A stretch of DNA of 64,000 bases, from IMG/VR virus record IMGVR_UViG_3300047552_000910, positions 1 through 64,000 of that record, one strand, 5' to 3'. The notes under the pieces were generated by a model. It made no database searches. It saw only the letters and a program-made list of their open reading frames with translations, and was not told where the DNA came from. The stretch's first letter is position 1. The number at the start of each line of letters is the position of its first letter. The translations under genes were made by a program, and so were the position numbers. The DNA comes from a virus. This document shows, in pieces, positions 1 through 43,176 of this stretch.

Positions 1-3000
1 GATTTGTACAGAGTACGAGTAGACGGTGCCGTTACTTCAGAAGGAACTATATCAAATCCTTTAGATACAAGCAATTGGGAGTTTTATGCTAGTTCGTTAT
101 TGACTGTAAATAATTTTGATTTAGATATTTTTGATGATAAAGATGCAGCAGCCGATTTAGATAATGAGAATTTGCGTGTATATGTTAATTCTAAAAAACT
201 TAATAAAGCCGACTGGCAATTAGAAGACGGTCCGTATTATAAAAAGATTGTTTTAAAAAAATCAGAGTTGGACGACGATTCTTATACTTCTGTTAATTAT
301 AATGATGTTGTTTCTATTAAGGTTTTTTCAGAATCGCCAATCAATGATAACGGTTATTACGAGATACCTATTAATTTACAACAAAATCCGTTAAATGAAA
401 CAATAGACGGGTTTACATTTGGGGAAGTATTTGACCATGTTGGTTCTATTATAGACAGCTTGCCCACACTCCAGTCAGACATTCCAGTAGAATTAAATCG
501 ATTAGTATTTAAACAAGAATCTATTGGTTATAATAATTTACGAGATATGGGTGCTGTGTCAAAATACGGAACAAAATTTGTTCAACATAGCGGTCCGTTA
601 AGCTTGTCTTTGTATCATATCACTTCTTCTGAAAATAATATAATACGAGCAATAGAACAAAGTAGAGATGATTATAGTAAGTTTAAAAAAGCATTTATTA
701 TAGTTGCAGAAACACTTGGCGTGGATACTGATGTATTCACTCATGTAAATTTGATTTTAGAAGAAGTTAATAGAAACAAGTCGTCGTCTTTTCCTTATTA
801 TCTAAGTGATATGATCCCGTATAATAATTTCAAACGGAATGATTTTGTTGTAATTGATAATAGAATTAAAGCGTATCCATTAGACAACGTATTTACTTTA
901 ACAAGCCTATCAAATAAAGCAGTAGGCGTATACTTGAATAGTATACAACTTTTATATGGTAAAGATTACACATTTGATGAGCAAGGGTTTGTTGTAATTT
1001 CTGCTAAAATTAATGATAACGATGTTATTTCAGTTTATGAGTACGATTCCACAGACGGGTGCTTTATACCAGAAACGCCTGCTAAGTTAGGATTATTACC
1101 TAAATACGAACCAATGTTGTATCTAGATACAACATTGGTTACACCGCGAATGATGATTCAAGGCCATGACGGAAGTCAAATATTAGCATATAACGATTAT
1201 AGAGATCAATTAGTTCTAGAATTAGAAAAAAGAATTTATAACAACATAAAATCACAGTACGATCCTGCTGTTTTTAATATCTATGATTTTATACCAGGTT
1301 ATTCTAGGATATGCAGCTATTCATTAACTGAGTTTAATCAAATTTTAGCTCCTACATTTTATGAATGGACTAGCTTGATAAACAGAGATTTTTCAAAACC
1401 ATTGACGTTCGATGAAAGTAATCCGTTTACTTCGAATTATGCAGCAATTGACGGAAGACAAGTGCCTGGATATTGGAGAGGCATTTATAAATGGATGTTT
1501 GACACAGATCGCCCGCATCTGTGCCCGTGGGAAATGGTAGGATATTCTACAGAACCTGTTTGGTGGGAAGATGTATATGGAGTTGCTCCGTTCTCTAGTT
1601 TAAACATGATAATGTGGACTGACATTAGTAACGGTTTAGTATCCGATCCCCGCAATGCTGTAAAAGTTTATGATGCAAATTTTAAACGACCATTTTTATT
1701 AACACATTTACCAGTAAATGTTGCAGGAGAGTTGTTAGACCCTGCTTCAATTGGTGTGGTAGTAGGCAGTAATAATCTTAATAATCGAAATGGTTATGTG
1801 TTCGGCGACGGCGGACCAGTAGAAAGTGCTTGGAGGAAAAGTAGCCACTATCCATTTAATTTAATAATTGCTGCAATGTTGATGCACCCTGCTAAGACAT
1901 TTGGATTATTATTAGATCGTGCTCGTATAAAACGTAATTTAACTAATCAGCTAATTTATACAGAGACCGGAGTTCGTATAACACCTGCTGATATTATAAT
2001 GCCTAGCGTATTTTTTAGCAGCAGTAGAATTCAAACATCTGGAATCATCAATTATTTGGTTAGCTATATTATACAAGATAAATTAAAAACTTTAGATAGT
2101 TATGTATATGATTTATCGTATATGAAAAGCCAACTTAGCTATCGTCTTGGTGGTTTTACCAGTGCTGAAAAATTTAATTTATTATTAGATAATAAATCTC
2201 CTGCGTCTTCGGCAAGTAGTGTATTTGTTCCTAAAGAAGATTATATCATTTTTTTAAATACATCTTCCCCACTTAAAAAAGTAGTATATAGTGGAGTTAT
2301 TGTTACCAAAACAACTGAAGGTTTTGAAGTTAAAGGGTATAGTAAATCTCATCCGTATTTTAATTATTATCAATGGTCTGGTGCTGGTAAAAATGTTAAT
2401 GTAGGCGGTATTTCCGAAAGTTATATGCAGTGGACTGCTGATAAACTTTACACCATTGGAAAAATTGTACAATATAGCGATAGATTCTATAGAGCTAGTA
2501 TAACCCACACATCGTCTGCAAGTTTTGATTTTGAATACTTTAAATTATTGTCGGCATTGCCTATAATCGGCGGGAAAGAAGCTAATTTTAGAAAAAGCTG
2601 GGATAGGTCTGTTGTGCAGGTGCTTCCATACGGCACAATATTACGAGATATCCAAGATGTTGTTGACTTATTATTAGGTTACGGGGAGTGGCTTAAAGAT
2701 CAAGGTTTTATATTTGATGATTATAATCAAGAAATTAATCAGATAACAAACTGGGAAACTAGTGCTAAAGAATTTCTTTTTTGGACTACGCAAAATTGGT
2801 CCACAGGAAAAGACAAGTGGGCTAATTGGCTCCCGTCAAATGAAATTGCAGCAGAGTCCATTGTCAAATATAATGGAGATTACTATAAAGCAATTCGCCC
2901 GTCTATTAATATAATACCAGATTCAACTGAGGGGTTATATTATTTTAGTAAATTAGACGGATTAAGTTCGGTTGGTAGTAGTGTTATATCAATGAGTCCG

Positions 3001-6000
3001 CTTGCTAATAAAATAACTTTTATTTCTGAACTTAGTGTAGTAGACGATATTACTAATCAATTTAATGAATATGAAATCGTTTCGGTAGACGGTAAACCAA
3101 TTCAGCCTTCTTATATAACTTCGTTTAGAGAAGACAATCGTGTTAGTTATATAAGTACTGATACCAATGGAATATACGGTGCAAGTTTTTATTTAATTCA
3201 AAAAGAACATGTAGTAGTTCTCAATAACAATACAATTTTCAATGATTTAATTTATAATTCATCATCTGGATATAAACAAGATCGAATTAAAGTGTCTGGC
3301 TATGTTATTTCTAACTGGAACGGATCTTTTAACTGTCCTGGTTTTATATTTGATAGAGCTAAAATTGTAGACTGGGCGCAATGGGTTGATTATGCACTTG
3401 GTGACATTGTTAAATATAAAGAATTTTATTATAGTGCAAATACATCTTTATCAGGAACAGAAGAGTTTAACGCAATTAGTTGGACAAAGTTAGATAATGC
3501 CCCAGTTAGTAAGTTATTACCTAACTGGTCTTATAAAGCTGCACAGTTTAATGATTTTTACAACTTAGATAGCGATAATTTTGATGTTGTACAACAGCAA
3601 CTGGGCCAGCACACCGTTGGCTACCAAAAACGTCAATATTTAGAGAATATTATTCAAGATGATGTTTCCGAATTTAAGTTTTATCAAGGTATGATTCTTG
3701 AAAAAGGCACACAGAATGTATTTAATAAGTTATTTGATGTATTAAGCGCAGACGATCAAGAAAGTGTTGATTTTTATGAAGAGTGGGCACTTCGTGTAGG
3801 TCGTTATGGCGCCAGCCCTGCATACGAGTCGATAGAATTTATATTAGATGAGGTGTTATTTAAAAATAACCCGCAAGGATACGAATTAGTTGAAACATTA
3901 GATAATACTCCGGTAGATTATATAATCAGACAGCGCCCACAAGATGTTTACCTAAAACCAATGGGGTACAATTCTGCACCGTGGCCGCTATCAAATCATT
4001 ACAAACAGTTTTTAAAGAGTCCCGGGCATGTTGTAGAGGCAGATGTTAAAGTAGTATTGCCTTCACTTGACCATATCATCGACAAGAACGACACCGGGGA
4101 AAGTTTATATCCAATTGAGGGTTTCGTAGAAGGCGATTATGTTTGGTGTACATTTGATCCTCCCCAATGGAATGTTTATAAGTATACCAATAGTAATATA
4201 CAAATTTTAAATATTACTCCAAATTCAAATTCGTGTACATTATTACTAAACGATGTAGATTCTTTTTTGATTGGTTCTTATATTGGTATAACAAATATAT
4301 CTAAAGGTGCAGGGTTTTATAAAATTATAGGAAAAGGCGAGTACACCATCGATATTTCTGCAAAAGCAGGTATATTTCCTCAGCCGTTCGACGAGATAGA
4401 AACAACGTTATTATATGAGCTAGCCGGCCAGCAAGTACAACGATTTGATGATTTAGCGGATAATAAAGCAGCAGCAAATATTTTTGCTAAAAACCTCAAA
4501 CCAAATGATTTGATGTGGGTGGATTATAATGGTGATACTACACTATGGGCAACTTGGAAATATGTTCCGGTATATATACCAAAATTAATATCATCTCCAA
4601 CACTAGATAGCAATTCATTATACGGCCGTGCTATTGCTGTGAATAAAGCAGGCCGTGTATGTGCAGTTGCAGAAGTGAATAGAAACAGAACAGTAACGAT
4701 GTTTACTAGATCAAACATAGATCGTTATTGGACTCCGGCATATTCGATTAATATGGTTACCGGCACTGAAATAGTAATATTTCAAGATTCACAGGGGGTT
4801 TTACGCCCGAGTGAAGTTGCTACAGAATTGGCATTGTCAGACGACGGTGTTTGGTTAGCAGTTGGTTCCCCTGCAGTTACTCGGGTATTGGTTACTAATA
4901 ATGTTTTACTACGCATGTCAGCGAGCGGCGGGCAATTGGCTCTCTCTACAGGTATTGTTTCGTTGTATAAAAAAGAGCCGAATACGAACAGATATATTCA
5001 TAATTGTACTTTCGCTAGTAGGAATTGTGACTTAGATAAATCCCGAAACGAATCATTTGGATCGTCATTGGTGTTCTCGGAAAATGCATTATTCGTTGGA
5101 GCACCTGGATATAATTCAAATAAAGGAATTGTTTATAAGTTAATTTATAATTCCGGATCTGATTTTTGGTCGTACGGGCAAGAAGCAGATGATATAAATC
5201 CAGAAACTATTACTGATATCGGTAATACTGTGTCTTTTGGTAGTTCCGTGGTATTTAATAATGATTATAGTATTTTATTAATTTCGAGTACTGGAAATAC
5301 GACAGTACCAGGTACTGTATCGGTATTTTATAAAGATGGCAGTTCATATGATTTAGCTACAGTGATCAACGAATCACACACACCTACGTCAAGTTTTGGC
5401 AGAGGTGTGGCGATTTCAAGTAATAATGAAATTGCAATTAGTGCGCAGTTAGAAACTACTGAACGTAAAAATAGAGGAATTGTATACACGTATTCTTTAA
5501 AGAATAATGCAGGTGTTACTACGTTTAGTAAGATACAAAGTATAGAATCTCCGTATCTTGGTTATAACTTATTTGGCAGCAAGTTAGCATTTATTAAAGA
5601 CAGTGTATCGGATTATTACTTACAAACGTATCAAGTGGAAAAATATGATGATACGTTGATGATTTATAACAGCGACGAGGGTTACGATAATTGGAATTAC
5701 GACATTCCGCGGTACGATTCCGAAGGAGCAAAGATTGGTGAGGGCTTAGTCCTGGCATACAATAGGTATTTTAATAAATGGGTATTATCTGAAGCTATTG
5801 GCCGATACGAAGATAATGTGTTTAGTACCGCTTATGGAACAGGATTTGCTGCAAGTAATACTTGTTTGTTAGTAGGGGCGCCATATTACAATTATGTATG
5901 GCCGTATACTAATCAATCTTTTCGAACAGGGCAAGTATTTGAATATCAAAATTTGCAAAGTAAAAGAAGTTGGACTGTTCGCGATTTAGAAGATTCCAAT

Positions 6001-9000
6001 ATAGATGTTTTTAAAATTAAACGAGCCTTTTTGTATAATAAAAAGACTAGTGAGTTAGTTACATATTTAGATGTTCTCGATTCAACGCAAGGTAAAATTG
6101 CAGGAGTTGCAGATCAAGAAATTAAATATAAAACATTTTTTGATCCTGCCATTTATAGTAATTTAACAGATCCAGTTGACGGATTAAGTGAATCTAAAGT
6201 TATAGGTATTAATGTTGTTAATATCGATAACGGCACATCGTGGACAAAAGAACAAGTTGGATTACTGTGGTGGGACTTAAAGACTTCTAAGTTCAATGTT
6301 GTGTCTAATAGAGATACAAATTATAGAAATACCATGCAAAATCGATTAGCAGTCGGTGCATCTGTTGACATTTATGAGTGGGTTGAGTCTTCTTATAAAC
6401 CATCTGAGTGGGACAAGTTGGCAACGTCTACCCAAGGCTATAGTCTTGGAATTAGCGGTACTAGTTTATACGGTGATCTCGTTTATAGTATTGCTAAACG
6501 ATACGATTCAGTTACTAAGATACCCAAAAATGTATACTATTTCTGGGTTAAAAATAAAACAACTGCGTCTCTTGCCCAGAATAGAAGTTTGTCAGCAAAT
6601 GATGTTGCTAATTTAATAAGTAACCCCCGCGGAGCAGGATATAAATTTATAGCATTTACTAGTCCGAGTTCTTTTAGTTTAGTTAACGTAGGTTCTTTAT
6701 TAAACGAAGAAAATGTTGTATTATCTGTGGAATACTGGATTACTGACCAAATAACGCAGAATATCCATTCTCATTGGGAATTAATTAGTGAAAATAAAGA
6801 TGCAGTGTTACCTCTTATTATAGAAGAAAAATGGTTTGATAGTTTATGCGGGCGAGATAAGAATGATTTGTTAGTACCAGATTACTCTTTATCACCGAAG
6901 TTGTTATACGGTGTAGAAAATCGTCCGCGGCAAGGTATGTTTATCAATAGGATAGAAATTGTTAAACAACTAGTAGAATATATTAATAAGGTATTAAAGA
7001 CTAATAGAATAACAGATCAAAAAAGCTTGTCTAAATTAAATTCTTTTGAACGTGCTCCTGGGTTACGTAGCGGCAAATATGATTTAGTAGTTGAGTCGAT
7101 GGTATCATTAGATGAGTTAAGCGATATAGATGTATCGGAATTCAAAGTACCAGAATTGCAAGTAAGAGCAGTCGACGGAAAAATTGATTCAGTACAAGTA
7201 ATTACTGCTGGGAATGGATATGCTGCCATAAACCCGTACGAAAAAGATTTGACTGGTGCTGTAGTTTCGTGGTATGGTCCTAAGTTTATAATAACAGGCG
7301 ACGGCAAAGATGCTGATGTAGTGTCGATAATTAATAGTAACGGAGCAATTATCGGATATAAAGTGATTAATGGTGGAGCAGGTTATAATACTGTTAATTC
7401 TAGGTGTACAATACGTAGCTATTCAGTATTAGTGCAATTGGATTCAACCGCAAGCGATGCATGGAGTATATACGAATACAATGTTGAATTCAATAAATGG
7501 AATAAAGCAGCGTCTCAAAGCTACGATACTCGCCGATATTGGAACACAATCGATTGGTATGATACTGGATACACCCAGTTTAGTGTGCCGGATTATATAA
7601 TTAACACGTATTTAGAATTAACAGATCCTAGATACAACGTTGGAGATTTAATTAAGATTACTGGCTCTGAGAACTGGGTGTTATTAGAAAAATTTGCTAA
7701 TTCTAACAATACTGATATAAGTTTACAATATCGTATTGTCGGGCAACAAAACGGCACCATTCAATTTTTGTCTAGTTTGTATGATTATAATTCTAATATC
7801 GGATACGACGGCACATTATACGATAATATTGGTTATGATAATATTTCTAGTATTGAGTTACGATATATACTCGAATCGTTAAGAGATGATATTCTTATAG
7901 ACGAGTTACGAATTGAATATATTAATTTATTTTTTGTATGTCTTCGATACGCACTGAGTGAACATCATTATTTAGATTGGGCATTTAAAACCAGTCTAGT
8001 AAAAGCTAATCATAATGTGGGTGGATTTAATCAACGATTAACATATAAAAATGATAATTTAAGTAACTTTGAAGATTATATATCAGAAGTTAAGCCGTAC
8101 CGAACTAAAATAAGAGAATATATTTCTAACTATACGAAGTTAGAGAATGTTGATTTAGCGGTTACTGACTTCGATTTACCCCCGGTATATGTCGATAATA
8201 AATCAATACCTGTAACATTGATGTTGCCCGAAGAAGAAAATAAGTGGTTAGATGACAATTTAGTATTATCATCGTACCCGTGGAAATATTGGTATAATAA
8301 TTATAAGCTAGGCATTAACACTGTAGATGTGCTTGCTTCAGGTCACAGTTATACTTCATCGAGTACTTCGATAAGTGTTGCGGGATTGTGTGACCGCCCA
8401 GCGAAATTAAAGGCTATTATTTCAACAGGGGAAATATTACTAATTACTGTTACAAATAGTGGTGCAGGATATAAAACTGCATTTGTGAATATCATCGATA
8501 CGGTTGGCACAGGCGCAACAGCAAATGTTATACTTGTTAATGGTGCAGTATCTGATATTGTTGTAACTAATAGCGGCACACGGTATTCAACAAATACTAC
8601 TATTGAGATTATAGGCCAATGTACTATACCGGCAAGTGCTAATTTATTAGTTTCTAATGGAAACTTAGTGGGTGTTGAAATACTTGACCCTGGCATGGGA
8701 TATACAACTATACCAGAAATTGGTATAGCGTCATCTACTGGTGTTGGCGGCGCCATTACGTGTACTATTGGTAGTGTTGTTCGAACCTCATTAATTAAGA
8801 TGAAGTTTGATAGGATTACAACAAATGCTTCGGTAATAAACCCAATTAAAACGGAAGTATTTGATTTGCCTTCATATGTTGACGGCGAAAGAACTGTATT
8901 CGAGTTAAAAATGTCGCCTAGTATGAAATTAGGAGATACTGTAGTTTCTGTTAAGCAAGGCGGAGATGTGTCGGTTGTTGAATTATCAAGCGACGACTAT

Positions 9001-34851: not shown

Positions 34852-35714
34852 ATAACCTCTATTTGCTTGTGTATCCACATATCTTGATGATATTGTTCAA
34901 TCCAGAATGCATCATTATTTAGATTTTGGATTGCTGTTTCTATCATTGCTTTATAGGCGTATTCCGGACACAACCCCAACTCCATTTTATAAGCATTAAA
35001 ACTAATAGAAGCATCGTTGTCGTTGTCTGTTTTCCAATTAGCACTTAATACCCAATTAACTGAATTGTTATTATATTTAAGTTCGCAAAAATCATCAACA
35101 TCATAAACGCCATCTTTATTTACAACACCATAATCGGTATCTACGATATTATTGAGATTATGATTTTGTTTATAAGTAAAAGATGTCAGCTCTCCGTTTT
35201 TGTAATCAGTTAATGCACAGTAATAACTTAACATGTGAGGAATTAAATCGCGGCTAACTCCGCCGAACGCTAATTCTTTATTAGTAAACCAGCTGCCGGG
35301 GTTAGGAATCCTGTTCTTATTATGCCAAGTTACTTTAATAGTTTCGGATAAATTTACTAATTGTTTAAGGTTATTAATCGAACGTCTATATTGGTTGTTC
35401 TTAACCATCATAAACCGAGTATCAGGATAATCTGTTAGCAATCGATGCCACAATTCATGATTTTTTAGACCCGGCTTTTCTATTAACACAATTCGGCACT
35501 TGGTACTTATTGCCCTAGCCATATTTTCATGTAAAAAATTGGGGGCAGCAATAATACCTATGTCGTATTTTTTAATATACGGTACTTGGCTAATTGAAGT
35601 ATATGTTGGATTTTTAGAAGTATCTGTGTCTACTGTATCTACCTCATACCCTAGCTCGTTGCAAACTGTTTGATATAATTGCCCGATGCCTAATCCGATT
35701 ATTAAGCAGTTCAT
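34848..35714 (-). CDS. Gfo/Idh/MocA-family NAD(P)-dependent oxidoreductase
   Basis: 288 aa. The Rossmann start IIGLGIGQLYQTV (5-17) with acidic D27/D29 after strand 2, IIAAPNFLHENMA and the family's EKPG at 79-82 (Lys contacts substrate and cofactor) are clear; GVSRDLIPHMLSYY fits the catalytic DxxxH element. These enzymes oxidise or reduce sugars and related compounds. It is coupled by 4-bp overlaps to the zinc-dehydrogenase-like gene downstream and the DpdA-like gene upstream, suggesting a joint role with base or sugar modification. Confidence 0.8.
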   Translation of the reverse strand: MNCLIIGLGIGQLYQTVCNELGYEVDTVDTDTSKNPTYTSISQVPYIKKYDIGIIAAPNFLHENMARAISTKCRIVLIEKPGLKNHELWHRLLTDYPDTRFMMVKNNQYRRSINNLKQLVNLSETIKVTWHNKNRIPNPGSWFTNKELAFGGVSRDLIPHMLSYYCALTDYKNGELTSFTYKQNHNLNNIVDTDYGVVNKDGVYDVDDFCELKYNNNSVNWVLSANWKTDNDNDASISFNAYKMELGLCPEYAYKAMIETAIQNLNNDAFWIEQYHQDMWIHKQIEVI

Positions 35715-37405
35715 AGCGAATTCTCCAATGTATCTAAGTTTTCTTCTTCGTCTGTAGTAAATTCTTCTGAGTGCTCGTCTGCATAAGAAAAAAGTGCATT
35801 AAAGCTGGTTGAAGAATTAGTTTCTTTTTTACCTGTTGCGCCACGCGTACCGATAACTTTCGATAATATCCTATCATACTTTTTAATCAATTTTAATGCA
35901 GTAGGCATATCAGCAGCAAATATTTGATCAACTAAGTCACCGATATAAATTCTTTCGTGTACTTCGCTAACTAGCATAGCAGGACAGCTTTGTTTATTTT
36001 CATAAACTTGGTTTGCTCGTAATACAGCATTCAAGTGGGCATAAACATTATGCCCCATTTGAATTGCATAAGAAAAAGAATCCCAGCTAGTGCTATTTTC
36101 TTTTCCTGCTTTATTTAAATCGCCTGGCGCGTATATACAAACATCTTTTATTTCACATTGGTCTATAACAGGACTAGATTCAAAAATAGGAAAAATGCCG
36201 TCTTGAATTACTGCATCTTTAAACAATCTTGTATCTTTTGCATATTTTTTATCGTCTGCAGACGATACCATTCGATAAACCCACTTCTTTCTATCTTCTA
36301 ATTCAGTTCGAACATAAATTTGTCCGTTTGCTGTTGCTAAGAACGGAGATGCACAATCGAAACTAATAGTAAAGTTGGGATTATGATATTTTCTAACGGC
36401 TTTTTGAATATCAGTTAAAAAAACAGCCCATTCTAATTTAGAAGTACCAAGAAAATGCATCCAATCGTGCTGGCCTTGAATCATTAATCCGTCATCAATA
36501 ATACGCCTAACCATTTTAATGGCTAATGTGGGAGAGCACATTAATTGGCCGCCTGCAGCCCACCCATTAAACGCTTTATCACCATATATTTTCGGATCGC
36601 AGAAATCTTTCATCTGTACATACCAATTTTCTGCTTGTGTATGGTTCTCGCCCTGAAGAACATTTAAGAACTTGCAATTACCATTGCGGTTTTTAATAAA
36701 GTATTCATTATTATATCGAGTGGCGTTAACTGCATCTTGATATGAAGATATGCCCGTTGCGAGCATGCTTGCAGGATCGCGGCAAGTCCATGCAGGAATA
36801 TCAAGAATCATACCGTAATCCATTAACGAGTCCATCCATGTTAATACCTGCTCTCGTTTCTTTTGTGCAGAGTCAAGTAGCCCTTGATATGCCTTAGCAT
36901 GATTAACAGCAGTAGTCTTCACATTACCTTGCTTAGTAAGAACAACATTGCCAGACTTATCTAAAATCGGTTTTTGCTCGATACCGAGTGCTGCCATTTT
37001 AGCCATCTTTTGTTTAACTTCAGTAGAAGTAGGAGCGCGCCACTCGCCGGCCCAAACACCCTTTCCTATTTGGAACCCACCGGAGTCGCCAATCACAATG
37101 GAAGTGTTTTTATTCCTGTTGCGAAACATATCTTCTGTTTGTTCTGGTTTATTTAAATCTAGTTTTGCATGGCCAGCCGAATAGAGGCTCCATTTATAAT
37201 AAAAAAGACCTTTATCCGGATCTAAGTAGTTAAGACTTTCCACACCGTTAACAAATGACTTTGGTACTCGTGTATACGGGATATACTCACCAAATCGCTG
37301 TTTACCTATAAAAGTGGCGTAAAAGCTTGACGTTGCAGGTAAAAAAACAGCATATTTGCTGAGACCATTTTCGTCTAATTGTATTTCAGTTAAGTTAACT
37401 TCCAT
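35711..37405 (-). CDS. dpdA: DpdA/TGT-like DNA 7-deazaguanine transglycosylase
   Basis: 564 aa from the ATG at 37405, chosen for its GGAG site (an upstream GTG would add 10 residues). GDSGGFQ (106-112) supplies the TGT general-acid/base Asp107, and MILDIPAWTCRD the likely nucleophile Asp202. The protein is much longer than tRNA-guanine transglycosylases, and the canonical CxCxxC zinc site is not seen, only a looser C-x5-C near residue 415. In the family, DpdA proteins swap guanine in DNA for a 7-deazaguanine. FolE, QueD and QueE in the same window support this. The C-terminus is acidic and disordered. Confidence 0.85.
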   Translation of the reverse strand: MEVNLTEIQLDENGLSKYAVFLPATSSFYATFIGKQRFGEYIPYTRVPKSFVNGVESLNYLDPDKGLFYYKWSLYSAGHAKLDLNKPEQTEDMFRNRNKNTSIVIGDSGGFQIGKGVWAGEWRAPTSTEVKQKMAKMAALGIEQKPILDKSGNVVLTKQGNVKTTAVNHAKAYQGLLDSAQKKREQVLTWMDSLMDYGMILDIPAWTCRDPASMLATGISSYQDAVNATRYNNEYFIKNRNGNCKFLNVLQGENHTQAENWYVQMKDFCDPKIYGDKAFNGWAAGGQLMCSPTLAIKMVRRIIDDGLMIQGQHDWMHFLGTSKLEWAVFLTDIQKAVRKYHNPNFTISFDCASPFLATANGQIYVRTELEDRKKWVYRMVSSADDKKYAKDTRLFKDAVIQDGIFPIFESSPVIDQCEIKDVCIYAPGDLNKAGKENSTSWDSFSYAIQMGHNVYAHLNAVLRANQVYENKQSCPAMLVSEVHERIYIGDLVDQIFAADMPTALKLIKKYDRILSKVIGTRGATGKKETNSSTSFNALFSYADEHSEEFTTDEEENLDTLENSL

Positions 37406-37469
37406 TATTTCTCCGGATATTTCCACTTTATTCACAACAAAATATGTTTTTAGTTGTTGACTTACGAGT

Positions 37470-38030
37470 TCATTTCAGTAACTGGGAAGTAAAATCGTCG
37501 TACGGAGTATTTTGTTGCGGATCCCCTGCCCATTCAAACCGAACATTATGCCGCCGGGTTACTGCCCATGCGCAGACAAACACGTAGTCGCTCAAAATAT
37601 TTAATGCCCGTATATGCAGATCCATATTAGGATTAGTTTCTTTTAATTTGCAAGCTACTAATTCAGTATGGCGAATAATGCATCTGAGTTGCATTAACTT
37701 AGCGTTCTTTTTAGTAGTCCTAATAAAACCAGTTAATGGGTTTAGCCGCGGTGCTTCTGCCTTAATTACAGCTTCAAATTGAGCAGCTGACAAATTGATT
37801 AAATCTATGTATTTTTGGCTAGTAGGGGAATGATGATTTGCACCCAATGCAAACACTAAATCTTGAATCGAATACATATCTGCGGAATAGCTTTGTATCC
37901 AATCTAATAGACCAATATATTCGATATTTAAATCGGTTTTTGGAAATTGTTTATTGCCATTAAACCAAGTAGTGCCATTGTCACCGTATCCTGTTCTAAC
38001 AACTGTTATTACTTTTTCGGGTTTGTTCAT
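37470..38030 (-). CDS. PduO-type cobalamin adenosyltransferase-like protein
   Basis: 186 aa. The ATP-binding start VVRTGYGDNGTTWFNGNKQF parallels the T(R/K)xGDxGxTxL motif of PduO, followed by NIEYIGLLDW in place of the ...E-x-GxxDEL... helix. Later IIRHTELVACKL and ALNILSDYVFVCAWAVTRRH parallel the RRAER and NRLSDYLFxxAR helices of the five-helix bundle. Family members transfer 5'-deoxyadenosyl to cob(I)alamin; some Arg/Asp contacts differ, so activity is uncertain. It overlaps the clamp stop by 4 bp. A cobalamin-linked function in a phage replication/modification operon is unexpected. Confidence 0.7.
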   Translation of the reverse strand: MNKPEKVITVVRTGYGDNGTTWFNGNKQFPKTDLNIEYIGLLDWIQSYSADMYSIQDLVFALGANHHSPTSQKYIDLINLSAAQFEAVIKAEAPRLNPLTGFIRTTKKNAKLMQLRCIIRHTELVACKLKETNPNMDLHIRALNILSDYVFVCAWAVTRRHNVRFEWAGDPQQNTPYDDFTSQLLK

Positions 38031-38854: not shown

Positions 38855-39838
38855 TTAGGAAAATTCGAATAGAGATTCAAATTCGTTATTTTTCACAGTA
38901 GACGCCAAGTCCCAAGATAATACACCAATTAGATTATCCAATTTTTTATGAATAATTGCGTTTTCCATTTCGTCGTGTGCAAACGGCAATCCTTTAAACC
39001 ACGCAGGTAGCCGTAACTCGTCTGTTGGGTATGCTACACTAGTAAATCCTAAAGGATTATGTTTCAATTTACAAACGATTACTTTTGTTCCGTCTGTAAT
39101 AGTAGAAGAATATTTGTCGTCGAATAATCGTTTAAGTGTATTCCAATTAATCGATGCTCTTACATGCCCGGGCATTGTAGATTTACCTACCAATGCTTCT
39201 TTATCTTGGTATTTAGTAATGTTATTAGCTCTCTTTGGGGATCCTTTCTCCCAACCCGGCCGTTCTTTAAATTCTTTTTTGAATTGATTAATATGCTCTA
39301 ATATCTCAGTTTCTTCGTGCCCTGTTAAAACCATCTCCAATACTTCACTCAAGAAATGTTGAATCACTTCTGGGGTATCGGATCTTCTAAGGTCCAGCCC
39401 CATTGCTTTAATTTTTCCTGGCTTGCCGTTTACATCGGTGCGTTTGCCGTCTTTATCGAAATATAAAATAGCATATCGTTTTTTAGTAATAAACAATGCT
39501 TTAGAACCCACTAATTCTCTGCCCGCCCTAATTACTTGTCCTCGAGATAACGGGCAATGAAACGTATTTAACATAAAGTCGGGGAAGCTGTCATTTGTTT
39601 CAGAACCAATCTGATCATATAAATTGATTACATTTTCTCTGGACCAATTAATTCGTTTAGCATCTATGTCGGTTTTTAAAGTTTGATACGCAGAAAAATA
39701 AATGGAATCTGTGTTATGTACTAAAATATCATTTGCGAAAAAGAAAGGATCTTGTTCGTCTATGCTTATATCATAAACATAATCATCTACATCGCCTAAA
39801 CACTCTATACTTTTTATTGTTGTTCTTTCAATATCCAT
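38855..39838 (-). CDS. 43: Split-intein C-half plus C-terminal part of DNA polymerase (family B)
   Basis: 327 aa. Residues 1-42 are an intein C-fragment: VYDISIDEQDPFFFANDILV then the terminal His41-Asn42. The +1 residue is Thr43, and the extein continues TDSIYF, the second half of polymerase motif C (DTDS). The following 284 residues are the rest of the palm and the thumb (KKRYAILYFDKDGK matches the KKxY element). Trans-splicing with the upstream gene would give a polymerase of about 941 aa. The start lies 25 nt inside the endonuclease gene. Confidence 0.93.
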   Translation of the reverse strand: MDIERTTIKSIECLGDVDDYVYDISIDEQDPFFFANDILVHNTDSIYFSAYQTLKTDIDAKRINWSRENVINLYDQIGSETNDSFPDFMLNTFHCPLSRGQVIRAGRELVGSKALFITKKRYAILYFDKDGKRTDVNGKPGKIKAMGLDLRRSDTPEVIQHFLSEVLEMVLTGHEETEILEHINQFKKEFKERPGWEKGSPKRANNITKYQDKEALVGKSTMPGHVRASINWNTLKRLFDDKYSSTITDGTKVIVCKLKHNPLGFTSVAYPTDELRLPAWFKGLPFAHDEMENAIIHKKLDNLIGVLSWDLASTVKNNEFESLFEFS

Positions 39839-40767
39839 TGTACCACCTTTTCAATAGTAAACTTTTTGTCTAACATAAAGTCTTGTTCCCACACCGTAAG
39901 TGCTGAGAATCCTAAATCTGTTACTGTTTTTATTTTTAACATATCTCTATGTTGTATATCTTTTGCACAACTGCCGCGAATAATTGCAGTATCTGTGTAA
40001 ATTTTAGGATTTGCGTGCCAATAATCGCCATTAAATTCTATTATACAATTTTTATGTTTTATATCATAAATTACATACGTGTTTAATAACGGCGACCATT
40101 TTCCGAATGGTTTGTTAAAGCTGGTGTGTTCTAATTCACCTATGCATTGAATTACTAAGTCAGTAAATTCTTTTTCCATCTTACTAGAATGAGACGTATT
40201 TTGCCGGGTTATAATTAGTTGGGCTGCTTCTTCTTCGGTAATTGCAAGATGCGCCGCTAACAATGCAGGGTTGTGTGGTATTGATTTTTTATGATTAACT
40301 TCTAAGTATTTTTGAACCCCAATGTTATTTCCGTATTTTTTTATAAAATATTCTTTTGTATTTGTGTACCCTTGACGCAAACAATACTTTTCCCATTTTT
40401 CGGCGCCAGCAACTTCTCCGTGGCGCGCTATCATTTTTTCTAGTGTCTGCGACCTTGATGAGTTATAACTATCGAACTGCTCTTTGCTCCATCCGTATTT
40501 TTCTTTTTTATAATCAAAAGAATTTGTTATTGCTTGTTTTTCTGTGTATTGCCGCCACCGATCGTTACCGTCAGTGTCCCCGTATTTTTTTATAAAATTT
40601 TCTAAAGTTACTGCCTTGGCCTTTGCTGATTCCGCGGATATAATTTGTGCGCCAGGGTACGCCAATTTATATTCTCTCCCATTATTAAATCTTCCGGTAC
40701 ATTTATATTTGAAGTGTGTCCATTGGAGCAGCGGGCTTTCAAATCCGCATTCTAAACATTTAACCAT
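39814..40767 (-). CDS. Free-standing Vsr-like homing endonuclease inside the fractured polymerase
   Basis: 317 aa. An N-terminal C4-C7...H-C zinc-finger-like motif (CLECGFESPL) is followed by three or four short repeats around KYGDTDGNDRWRQY and KYGNNIGVQKY, likely DNA-binding. The C-terminal domain has IIEFNGDYWHANP and SALTVWEQDF, the signature of the Vsr/EDxHD-type endonucleases found between split-intein gene halves. It has its own ATG with AGGAG 10 nt upstream and a late-type CATAAATA element. It presumably spreads the split arrangement by cutting intein-less polymerase genes. Confidence 0.9.
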   Translation of the reverse strand: MVKCLECGFESPLLQWTHFKYKCTGRFNNGREYKLAYPGAQIISAESAKAKAVTLENFIKKYGDTDGNDRWRQYTEKQAITNSFDYKKEKYGWSKEQFDSYNSSRSQTLEKMIARHGEVAGAEKWEKYCLRQGYTNTKEYFIKKYGNNIGVQKYLEVNHKKSIPHNPALLAAHLAITEEEAAQLIITRQNTSHSSKMEKEFTDLVIQCIGELEHTSFNKPFGKWSPLLNTYVIYDIKHKNCIIEFNGDYWHANPKIYTDTAIIRGSCAKDIQHRDMLKIKTVTDLGFSALTVWEQDFMLDKKFTIEKVVQWILKEQQ

Positions 40768-40791
40768 ATACTGATACTCCTATCCTTATAG

Positions 40792-40799
40792 TATTTATG
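40792..40799 (-). promoter_or_regulatory. Late-type promoter core CATAAATA before the endonuclease gene
   Basis: CATAAATA on the minus strand contains the stop codon of the polymerase N-part and lies 25 nt before the endonuclease start. It differs from the T4 late core TATAAATA at one position, and the spacing equals that of the GGTAAATA elements at 56517 and 62865. Confidence 0.5.
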
Positions 40800-43113
40800 T
40801 ATTTAAGCAAATTATAAGGTCAGTATCTTTAATCTCTAGCGGAGTCACTTCTAGCAGGAACCCGGCTCGATCAACCATTACGCTATGATCTTCAGTAACT
40901 GTCACAGATTTATCATTTTGCAATGTAATTTTATACAACTTCTTTTTAGTTTTGTGCCTCATAACATACGAAATTGTAGACATAACAGGGGAATCTTCAA
41001 AAGCATTAAACCCAACTACTTTAGCAAAAGATTGTACTCCGTATTCTTTTCCGTATTCTATCACATGTTGGCAGCATTGTTCATAGAGCTCTTTAATTGG
41101 TATCTGCCCTCCGTCAGTTCTTATCATAGTGTCGCCAGTAACACTGTCGTTATATTTGACTGATTCCCCTTTATAATCATAAAAGCCTGTTATAATCTCA
41201 TTAACTTTAGCGGACATGTGCTTAACTACCTGTCTGCCAGTAAGAGTAACTGATTGCCCTAACCGTTTGTCAAAGAATCTAGAACCTGCATTGAGTAGCG
41301 CGCCGTAAAGGGAATTTAACTGTATCTTGGTAACCTGTTGGCGTTTATCCCAGTGTTCTTCTGCAACTTTATCTTTCTTTTCAATTGCTTCTTGTAAGTT
41401 CTTTTGATATGTTTGCCTATCAGAATACCACTTAGTTAATATTCCCGGAATAACTCCTTCCTTGGAATAAGTAAAAATAGTGCCGTTAGCAGAAAGCATA
41501 TACGGTTGATTCGAGTTATAAATTAGTTCGTGTATTTCTGCACCTGAAAGGGTATCGGTTGTACCATTCTCCCAGTCTACAGTAATCATTTTACCTTTGT
41601 CTTTTTCAAGAACAGCAGTAAATTCTAACGATCCAAACAATCCTTCCCATGCGGTTGCAAAGCTTGTACCATTTTCTATTTTATTTTGGATAAAGTTTTC
41701 GGTATCGGTTTGTCTAAGTTGTCCTACTATTGTTTCGGGACTCATATTCATTGCACGGATAACCGACGGATATAGACTCTTAACATCAAGTAATCCCACC
41801 CAATCGTGTAATCCTTTTTTTGGATAAGCTACATACGCGCCTGCTGCTTGTGTATCTAAATCTTTAGTACGAACACGATCTTTGATACAAAAACCTAGTT
41901 TATGAGCTTCGTTGATTATTGCTTGGTCTGTAGCAGAAACAACGCCCATTGTGGTTGGAATTAATACTCCAATTTCGTGAGCAACCTCGTTAGCAATATC
42001 AATAAATTTAAGTTTATTATCAAGTTTATTTAGAAGTGCGCAGTCTTGTCGGTTGTATTCGACAAATTTAGCAAAATCATCGTGATACAGTTGATCTAGT
42101 GTACCTTCATAAACAGTTTTTCGTTCATGCAGTTCATATTCTGCAATAGCATCCAATTTATACGAGTGCCGTTCTTCGTAAGTATATTTGCGATACAACT
42201 CCAGACTATCTATATGCATTCTTCCTACTAAGTCGTAAGTAAATGCAGTTCTTCCGTACTTTTCATATTCGCGTTTCTTAGGGAATTGGTCGAATAGACA
42301 TAACTTCTTAGTATATTCCTTGGATAAAATCCGAGTAATCCTATTCACAACATACGGAATATCAAATCCTTCTCCGTTCCAAGCAGAAAGTACATCAACA
42401 TCTTCGATTAAATCTAGAAATGTCAATAACATTTCTTTCTCAGATGTAAAAAGATATGTATTTGGAATATCTTTTATCAATTCAGCAGCAGCTTCCTCAG
42501 TTAATGAGGACGGAATCAATGCCAAACAAATTAATGCATCGGACCATTGCAGATGAACAGATATTGCAGTAATGGGGAGGAATGCTTCTTGAGAAGCAGC
42601 ATAGCCAGGTCCTGCTTCTATATAACGGCATGTGTTAGCTTGCACCCACTTTTTATCGATATGATCGTAAACTTTATATCGTTCTCTATGAGGAAGTAAT
42701 CCTAATTCTCGTACAGTAATATCTTTGTCTGGCGGTGTAATTCTAAGTTTGAAGCCCGACGGAAACGCATACGGTTGGAAATCGGTTTCAATGTCAAAGA
42801 AACAGACATTAAGTTTCGGGGTTGGGAGGTTTGCGTAATATTCCGATAAGCAAGTAAAAATAGGATTTAAATCAGTTTCGAATAACTGCTTAGTAGCGTA
42901 TGCAGAACGCGCCATTTTAAAATCTTTTAAGTTTTTGCAAGTAACCTTTCTTACAGCATCTCCATAAATTGATTTATGTTTGCCGTTATGATCTTCTACA
43001 TAAAAGGAATATTGCACAGGGTGGGTATTAAAAACACGATTACCATCTTTATCTCTGCCTACTACATGAATAATATCCGTGGTTTTATTGTGCCAGCAAT
43101 TAACGTAATTCAT
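40795..43113 (-). CDS. 43: N-terminal part of family B DNA polymerase fused to split-intein N-half
   Basis: 772 aa from ATG 43113 (GGAGAGAAGA just upstream). Exonuclease: Exo I D107/E109 (FFDIET), Exo II D251 (NGEGFDIPYV), Exo III Y353...D357 (YNRQD). Polymerase: motif A D443 (LLDVKSLYPS), motif B KIQLNSLYG (596-604). The extein ends KYND at residue 656; intein residues 657-772 begin Ser1 (SVTGDTMIRTDGG) and contain the block B TEDH at 740-743. The break falls inside motif C, so the enzyme is inactive until spliced to the 38855-39838 product. Confidence 0.95.
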   Translation of the reverse strand: MNYVNCWHNKTTDIIHVVGRDKDGNRVFNTHPVQYSFYVEDHNGKHKSIYGDAVRKVTCKNLKDFKMARSAYATKQLFETDLNPIFTCLSEYYANLPTPKLNVCFFDIETDFQPYAFPSGFKLRITPPDKDITVRELGLLPHRERYKVYDHIDKKWVQANTCRYIEAGPGYAASQEAFLPITAISVHLQWSDALICLALIPSSLTEEAAAELIKDIPNTYLFTSEKEMLLTFLDLIEDVDVLSAWNGEGFDIPYVVNRITRILSKEYTKKLCLFDQFPKKREYEKYGRTAFTYDLVGRMHIDSLELYRKYTYEERHSYKLDAIAEYELHERKTVYEGTLDQLYHDDFAKFVEYNRQDCALLNKLDNKLKFIDIANEVAHEIGVLIPTTMGVVSATDQAIINEAHKLGFCIKDRVRTKDLDTQAAGAYVAYPKKGLHDWVGLLDVKSLYPSVIRAMNMSPETIVGQLRQTDTENFIQNKIENGTSFATAWEGLFGSLEFTAVLEKDKGKMITVDWENGTTDTLSGAEIHELIYNSNQPYMLSANGTIFTYSKEGVIPGILTKWYSDRQTYQKNLQEAIEKKDKVAEEHWDKRQQVTKIQLNSLYGALLNAGSRFFDKRLGQSVTLTGRQVVKHMSAKVNEIITGFYDYKGESVKYNDSVTGDTMIRTDGGQIPIKELYEQCCQHVIEYGKEYGVQSFAKVVGFNAFEDSPVMSTISYVMRHKTKKKLYKITLQNDKSVTVTEDHSVMVDRAGFLLEVTPLEIKDTDLIICLNT

Positions 43114-43176
43114 TCTTCTCTCCGCGTGACCTTTGCGGCGGCCACATACCACTCTTTGTGAACCTTTAATTCGTCA

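Follow-up and report, generated by a model that had tools for sequence, protein, structure and literature searches.

Organization of the locus

The window analysed in this work, a stretch of 64,000 nucleotides (nt) corresponding to positions 1 to 64,000 of the bacteriophage record IMGVR_UViG_3300047552_000910, carries at positions 38,855 to 43,113 a DNA polymerase gene (PolB) that is interrupted inside its catalytic motif C. Three open reading frames (ORFs) are found there on the minus strand: the N-terminal part of the polymerase continued by the N-terminal part of an intein (N-ORF, intein part IntN), an endonuclease gene, and the C-terminal part of the intein continued by the remainder of the polymerase (C-ORF, intein part IntC). 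The features of the locus are the following, in order of decreasing coordinates.

43120-43123, minus strand: GGAG resembling a Shine-Dalgarno sequence, ahead of the N-ORF
41146..43113, minus strand: PolB N-extein, 656 residues, comprising the exonuclease domain and the polymerase motifs as far as the first Asp of motif C (...VKYND)
40798..41145, minus strand: IntN, 116 residues, with Ser1 in block A (SVTGDTMI), His64 in a block-X-type VMRH and block B T84-E-D-H87
40795-40797, minus strand: stop codon TAA of the N-ORF
40777-40781, minus strand: AGGAG upstream of the endonuclease gene
39814..40767, minus strand: free-standing endonuclease gene, 317 residues, with its own start codon
39843..39849, minus strand: AAGGTGG within the endonuclease gene, 4 nt ahead of the C-ORF start codon, Shine-Dalgarno-like and presumed to function as such
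39713..39838, minus strand: IntC, 42 residues, with block F (DDYVYDISIDEQDPFFFAND) and block G (LVHN)
38858..39712, minus strand: PolB C-extein, 285 residues, resuming motif C at TDSIYF; stop codon at 38855-38857

The N-ORF (43113-40795, minus strand) encodes 772 residues, 656 of the extein ending in KYND and 116 of the intein starting with SVTGD, and is closed by TAA. The C-ORF (39838-38855, minus strand) encodes 327 residues, divided into 42 of the intein ending in LVHN and 285 of the extein starting with TDSIYF. These boundaries agree to the residue with those of the initial annotation of the stretch, which had also located the break inside motif C; it falls between the two aspartates of DTD (D/TDS, the slash marking the break). 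The extein parts add up to 941 residues (656+285), as had been proposed for the joined product. The endonuclease gene begins 27 nt past the stop codon of the N-ORF and overlaps the C-ORF by 25 nt, the start codon of the latter falling in the last 25 nt of the endonuclease gene. A separate start and an upstream purine-rich stretch are present for each of the three ORFs. The layout is that of a split intein, with two separately encoded proteins (N-extein with IntN and IntC with C-extein) for one host protein. It is also that of a fractured gene, in the sense of Dassa and co-workers, as an endonuclease gene with its own start lies between the halves. The intein blocks are named in the customary way, in part after PMC6892783.

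Distribution and insertion sites

The endonuclease was used as a query against IMG/VR and returned 273 confirmed relatives. The best 80 of them were retrieved, many of these 80 being near-copies; a search with the whole N-terminal half as query returned one stretch and no confirmed relative. The loci of the relatives are designated by L-numbers, L001 and L002 being the window's own pieces. These two were dropped together with the contigs fetched a second time (L095, L100-L102 and L104-L107), and the set L119-L158 was left out of the analysis except for L119, L121, L123 and L124.

Among the best 80 of the 273 relatives, the endonuclease gene always follows a PolB N-terminal half with IntN (80/80), at no more than 50 nt from its stop codon in 75 cases and at 171-367 nt in 5. 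A C-terminal half with IntC comes after the endonuclease in 77 of the 80, and the remaining 3 contigs end first. The length of IntN is 116 residues in 45 loci and 115-128 in the others. Two insertion sites located two codons apart are used: site a (D/TDS) in 67 of the 80 loci, 3 of them seen on the N side only, site b (DTD/S) in 12 and both sites in one (L091). Site-b halves were also observed beside the endonuclease in L119 (N side only), L121 and L123 (C side only) and L124 (both sides). Intein-free, empty polymerases are present in L003-L009 and L013. Split, contiguous, empty, endonuclease-remnant and doubly occupied states are thus all found in one gene among the relatives. Extra DNA, besides and ahead of the endonuclease gene, is contained in the gaps of L070-L072 (1,937 nt) and L073 (2,027 nt); in L071 it includes a 206-residue ORF which looks membrane-anchored by eye.

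A relative of the endonuclease is present in 49 records of cultured phages, and its context was examined in eight of them. It is flanked by polymerase genes in Aes144, Aes508, CP21, VPALA, phiKp_21 and KP13-7, and only the C-terminal half was seen beside it in Lak-C1. No intein halves were detected by motif scan in Nitratidesulfovibrio phage SRB7757 (L112); the endonuclease may therefore live elsewhere outside the best 80. Bacterial and archaeal genomes yielded two weak relatives, of the endonuclease only, and the motif scan revealed no polymerase halves in either.

Residues, homology and fold of the intein

Both ORFs match the Pfam profile Intein_splicing, the N-ORF at its end (2.8e-8) and the C-ORF at its start (1.2e-4). 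The two matches lie slightly below the Pfam cut-off; in a separate genome search that of the N-ORF lies above it. IntN also matches the crystallised Aes123 PolB1 split intein (9HTH) with an E-value of 4.3e-13, and these matches speak against a chance resemblance. The splicing residues are all present in the window (S1, T84-E-D-H87, H41-N42 of IntC and T+1).

For the intein tree, 32 of 88 inteins were dropped when at least 98% identical to one that was kept, and L027, L060 and L064, devoid of a C-part, were dropped as well. Ser1, the TxxH motif and the terminal Asn are invariant in the 56 distinct inteins. The block-X-type His is recognized by pattern in 55 of these 56, and by eye also in L016 (IRH). 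At the penultimate position 52 inteins have His and the other 4 have Lys (L016, L011, site a of L091, and L096), the intein being contiguous in L096 and L011; this Lys would possibly result in slower C-terminal cleavage. The +1 residue is Thr in all 47 site-a inteins and Ser in all 9 site-b inteins. Ser at position 1, in place of Cys, and Thr at +1, both pointed out in the initial annotation, are present as described and yet not distinctive, being common to 56/56 inteins and to 47/47 site-a inteins, respectively. IntN is under purifying selection: the ratio of nonsynonymous to synonymous substitution (dN/dS), computable for six of nine pairs, is 0.06-0.11 in these six. The AlphaFold2 (AF2) model of the contiguous relative L097 is predicted to fold as a Hint domain, with a mean confidence (pLDDT) of 91.7; its best match in the PDB is again 9HTH (E 1.2e-13, template modelling score 0.89). 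The window intein contains four non-catalytic Cys.

The gap endonuclease

The endonuclease consists of a Cys-rich start (C..C...H...C, zinc-ribbon-like by eye), a helical middle and a C-terminal nuclease domain. The first ~190 residues are mostly helical, and residues ~190-317 form a domain of the Vsr or I-Bth0305I type with the motif EFNGDYWH. In a second-look structure alignment of the AF2 model (pLDDT 92.9), the C-terminal ~125 residues align with Vsr (1cw0) at Z 11.7 over 116 residues with a root-mean-square deviation (rmsd) of 3.5, and with the catalytic domain of I-Bth0305I (3r3p) at Z 10.8 over 96 residues with an rmsd of 3.3. The Vsr-like nature attributed to the gene in the gap is borne out by this predicted structure, which resembles I-Bth0305I as well. 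In a profile search with the endonuclease, Vsr chains were retrieved at E-values of 0.026-0.034, the next unrelated chains appearing at 1.9, and 3r3p gave no sequence match. Residues D235, E244, H251 and K278 are invariant in 44 relatives and D248 is conserved in at least 90% of them; these residues are candidates for the catalytic residues of the EDxHD homing endonuclease family. Two results speak against the assignment: Foldseek alone retrieves Vsr weakly (E 6.7e-3), and the match to the Pfam family MTES_1575 lies below its cut-off.

Polymerase parts and content of the record

Both extein parts match the phage PolB family phrog_262 (1.9e-138 and 3.6e-50). Together with the matches to PF00136 and PF03104 and the presence of exonuclease and polymerase domains, this identifies a polymerase of the T4 gp43 type, as anticipated when an alignment of both halves to gp43 was proposed. 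The best PDB chains are 3kd1 and 1clq, which we take to be RB69 gp43. The virus record, an IMG/VR fragment, comprises 98,929 bases. A continuous polymerase gene elsewhere would have contradicted the initial annotation; within this fragment neither a second PolB nor any other polymerase piece was found, and PolA, a further intein (genome search) and a second copy of the endonuclease were likewise not detected. Ten related split-PolB records (93-453 kb) each contain pieces of only one PolB in the phrog_262 search, which fits one split gene, and PolA is matched in none of the 11 records that include the window's.

Other interruptions were observed in this polymerase family. Group I introns (RF00028) occur in 10 of 19 distinct loci, scanned as a non-random selection (L058, L061, L090, L091, L092, L008, L096, L103, L108 and L109), and those checked sit at a polymerase break around motif B; the Rfam search of the window found nothing. 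A second break is located near extein residue ~540-586 in L103 (1760-4577), L096 (1312-4700), L099 (2965-4700), L029, L052 and L088. Several of these gaps contain another endonuclease-like gene and no intein was seen in them; the break is similar to the one annotated between gp43A and gp43B in Aeromonas phages.

Decay, probable re-fusion and double occupation

In L103 (5350-5574), ~200 nt between the still-split halves encode the C-terminal 75 residues of the endonuclease, with 46 of 74 positions identical to residues 244-317 of the window protein. In L098 (4253-4315), 21 codons at the junction overlap both ORF ends and display a weak likeness to the endonuclease (8/21 residues to L032 and 5/20 to the window); they may represent its last remnant. 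Inteins encoded by a single ORF occupy site a in L096, L097 and L099, where they are scattered among the split inteins of the intein tree. A single clade of the three is rejected (p 0.0004), as is one of L096 and L097 (p 0.001), and the L096 intein groups with L053, L055 and L061 at 98/92. In L096 the start Met of the C-part is retained in frame. When the linker of L097 (AAAAGGTGACAAAATAGATGTTGAA) is compared with the window's ribosome-site and start region (AAAAGGTGGTACAATGGATATTGAA), 20 of 25 positions agree; the match is short, and part of it encodes IntC in both. The probable, although not proven, explanation is that these three are split inteins closed up again after loss of the endonuclease.

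The opposite history, in which contiguous mini-inteins are ancestral and the gene was split many times, is considered unlikely. It draws on a series of caveats that weaken re-fusion: the trees are unrooted, some key branches are weak (L097 lies within 91/88 with unresolved forks and the branch of L099 is long), the DNA likeness of L097 is short, the Met retained in L096 may be an ancestral feature and the L098 remnant is weak. Repeated splitting would however have to reproduce a break at almost the same point, together with an identical choice of endonuclease and the same overlap, every time, and the separate positions of L096, L097 and L099 argue against it as well. Moreover, the 75-residue remnant between the still-split halves of L103 is the intermediate expected from re-fusion.

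The two sites can be occupied at once. In L091 (IMGVR_UViG_3300009194_000009, polymerase at 2462-7380), YGD is followed by a split intein with endonuclease ending in LLKN, then by TD, a contiguous intein ending in LVHN and SSYF, and a group I intron is present at motif B of the same polymerase gene. Removal of both inteins leaves YGDTDSSYF. Both inteins retain Ser1, TxxH and the final Asn, the first having Lys for His before that Asn. A DNA pattern search found this type of double junction in no other contig of IMG/VR. We lean, with some reserve, towards a picture of motif C as contested by related mobile inteins that use two sites, where fractured genes decay and can re-fuse into mini-inteins and where L091 would need splicing both in trans and in cis around Thr-Asp. 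No description of the re-fusion of natural split inteins, or of inteins two residues apart, was found in the open-licence literature; neighbouring inteins within one gene are reported for archaeal MCM in PMC10643990.

Horizontal movement of the cassette

Trees were built from C-exteins of at least 200 residues (57 rows) and from endonucleases of at least 250 residues (48 rows). The window polymerase is sister to L063, in a clade with L037, L047, L049-L051 and the empty L003 (99/96 and 98/88), and the window endonuclease groups with L014, L015, L016 and L018 (100/98). When each grouping was forced on the other data, it was rejected by approximately unbiased (AU) tests (p 0.0009 and 5e-8), and p was 0.029 with the intein data. 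Identity matrices were computed for the 26 site-a loci in which each of the four parts was of sufficient length; L012 and L094 were left out as divergent. The N- and C-exteins correlate with each other (rho 0.74), as do intein and endonuclease (rho 0.76), and the cross pairs range from 0.42 to 0.54, the value for N-extein and intein (0.42) lying inside the permutation range (maximum 0.52).

Recent transfers stand out in pairs of loci. Over the 1,439 nt of the cassette, L026 and L033 are 97-100% identical in each bin, against 73-92% per bin in the polymerase flanks; on the downstream side the edge is sharp, identity dropping from 100% to 72% within the first 50 nt, and on the upstream side it is soft (84-92% in the last 200 nt). 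Synonymous differences between L024 and L026 amount to 0.22 in the endonuclease and 0.30 in IntN, versus 0.74 and 0.82 in the exteins. The C-exteins of L055 (site a) and L092 (site b) are 83% identical with inteins at 41%, and those of L103 and L032 97% with inteins at 73%. Vertical inheritance of the cassette was rejected on the discordant trees, AU tests, identity matrices, synonymous differences and cassette/flank bins. By these comparisons, intein and endonuclease are shown to move horizontally as a unit, largely independently of the polymerase. Some points detract from this conclusion. The clades submitted to the AU tests were picked after the trees were seen. Three of the four cross correlations exceed the permutation maximum, so cassette and polymerase are loosely linked rather than unlinked. 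Finally, the window and L014 share 53-79% per bin in the cassette and 51-70% in the flanks; the transfer of the window's own cassette is, on these identities, an old one.

Cassette movement and nuclease fold make it most likely that the endonuclease cuts uninterrupted motif C and that homing is the means of spread. It is rather improbable, in comparison, that the endonuclease is a free-standing passenger targeting elsewhere and that the cassette was moved by homologous recombination of co-infecting phages. Plain recombination would give what is observed with L026 and L028, which are alike in 900 nt of the upstream extein (96-100% per bin) and in the cassette (97-100%) and diverged only downstream; judged by this pair, ordinary recombination also occurs. 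The soft upstream edge of L026/L033 points in the same direction. Against this alternative, the cassette is alike and both sides are diverged in L026/L033 and L024/L026, with the sharp downstream edge in the former, the histories of endonuclease and intein are concordant (rho 0.76), and every one of the best 80 among the 273 endonuclease relatives is at this place.

Proposed mechanism

The locus is very probably a PolB gene of the T4 gp43 type fractured by a split intein, whose polymerase product is trans-spliced to 941 residues, with a homing endonuclease in the gap. The reading proposed in the initial annotation is supported by the intein residues, extein continuity, the 56 inteins, the fold of the contiguous relative and that of the endonuclease. 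By analogy with the related Aes123 PolB1, the window intein most likely splices in trans. The three adjacent or overlapping ORFs would be translated separately, and the two polymerase precursors would come together by way of IntN and IntC, which would fold as a single Hint domain. Ser1 would then take over the peptide of Asp(-1), attack by Thr(+1) would produce a branched ester, and the Asn of VHN would cyclise, releasing a scarless 941-residue polymerase with motif C (D-TDS) restored. The endonuclease would cut the uninterrupted motif-C codons of intein-free polB, and repair would copy in the IntN-endonuclease-IntC cassette. A detail that fits less well is the Asn at extein position -2 (KYND), which is found in the window alone among 98 loci (Gly in 89 and Ala in 8).

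It is most improbable that the halves act as two subunits of a polymerase held together non-covalently, with an intein that is dead or serves merely for dimerisation. gp43A and gp43B of some Aeromonas phages are such a two-subunit polymerase. Non-covalent splits indeed seem tolerated in the family, because the PolB of the relatives broken near residue ~540-586 (L096, L099, L103, L029, L052 and L088) shows no intein there. The break of the window nevertheless lies between the aspartates of DTD, and an unspliced intein would remain in the active site; conservation of Ser1, TxxH and the final Asn in 56/56 inteins and the low dN/dS of IntN are further arguments against a dead intein. A contiguous intein with in-frame endonuclease broken by frameshifts, an assembly or sequencing artefact conceivable in a metagenomic fragment, has a negligible probability and is refuted by the recurrence of the three-ORF layout in 77/80 contigs (the other 3 ending too early) and in the cultured Aes144, Aes508, MIJ3 and KP13-7, each ORF of the window having in addition its own start and purine-rich upstream stretch.

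Neighbouring genes

Downstream of the polymerase, positions 37470-38030 (minus strand) encode a cobalamin adenosyltransferase domain (PF01923, 2.5e-17), unexpected beside replication genes. The 574-residue protein encoded at 35711-37435 (minus strand) has no Pfam or PHROG match; it presumably resembles an enzyme of the tRNA-guanine-transglycosylase/DpdA type, and look-alikes adjoin PolB in L003, L005 and L097 (by eye).

Comparison with known systems

Fractured genes in which the gap between the split-intein halves holds a free-standing endonuclease were reportedly described by Dassa et al. in 2009, in other host genes. In the archaeon Nanoarchaeum equitans, the PolB halves are encoded far apart with no endonuclease known between them, and we assume that this split intein occupies the same D/TD site as that of the window. 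PMC8861304 names the N. equitans PolB as a cysteine-less split intein; it has in common with the window intein that it is a split PolB intein independent of cysteine.

The closest systems are those of phages Aes123, Aes144 and Aes508, which share with the window a T4-type PolB, a split intein in motif C, a Vsr-like endonuclease in the gap and a homologous IntN. The GenBank records of Aes144 and Aes508 (JN377900 and JN377894) annotate an N-intein, a VSR or VSR-like endonuclease and a C-intein in polB. The gap endonuclease of the Aes144/Aes508 type is 35% identical to that of the window, and their polB genes carry a group I intron and an extra split. Their site is DTD/S with Ser at +1 (C-part ..LVHN SVYL), whereas the window has D/TDS and Thr; the window intein is therefore a homologue at a neighbouring site and not an allele of PolB1. 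According to PMC11923092, the Aes123 PolB1 split intein trans-splices with an efficiency put at ~30% by its authors and is cysteine-less, unlike the window intein with its four non-catalytic Cys.

In Pseudomonas phage MIJ3 (L010), PolB is likewise broken by a split intein and an endonuclease gene separates its halves (PMC6892783). Its polymerase is 43% identical to that of the window and its intein related, but the site is DTD/S with Ser at +1 and the gap gene, annotated as HNH, was not found as a relative of the window endonuclease. The CP21, LCGC14 and GOM-OPS-1 inteins, as described in PMC12707363, are natural split inteins of phage-type PolB with Ser1 and the NX-motif His, as in the window, and differ from it by Ser at +1. 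The phage split inteins with a visible +1 residue (MIJ3, CP21, LCGC14, GOM-OPS-1, Aes144 and Aes508) all have Ser there, and no paper combining D/TDS and Thr at +1 with a Vsr-like endonuclease was found in the open-licence literature. The PolB mini-intein of Salicola phage SCTP-2 (L011) is related to the window intein and inserted at the same D/TDS site, but is contiguous, with no endonuclease between its parts. The window endonuclease is for its part similar in fold to the homing endonuclease I-Bth0305I, as judged from the predicted model (3r3p, Z 10.8).

The emphasis initially placed on a replicative polymerase as host can be retained only in part: PolB is the host, and MIJ3, Aes144/Aes508, Aes123 and CP21, being of the same kind, make this choice not unusual. 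Split inteins are used as protein-joining tools and new cysteine-independent ones are sought; in the family of the window, natural split pairs with Ser1 and Thr+1 number in the dozens and occupy a second PolB site. Comparison of the relatives suggests ways in which these elements move, degenerate and on occasion become contiguous once more, which bears on the origin of split inteins and on whether splitting can be reversed. A split-intein PolB with an endonuclease in the gap is widespread and already known from the systems above, and it is the evolutionary comparison that is added here.

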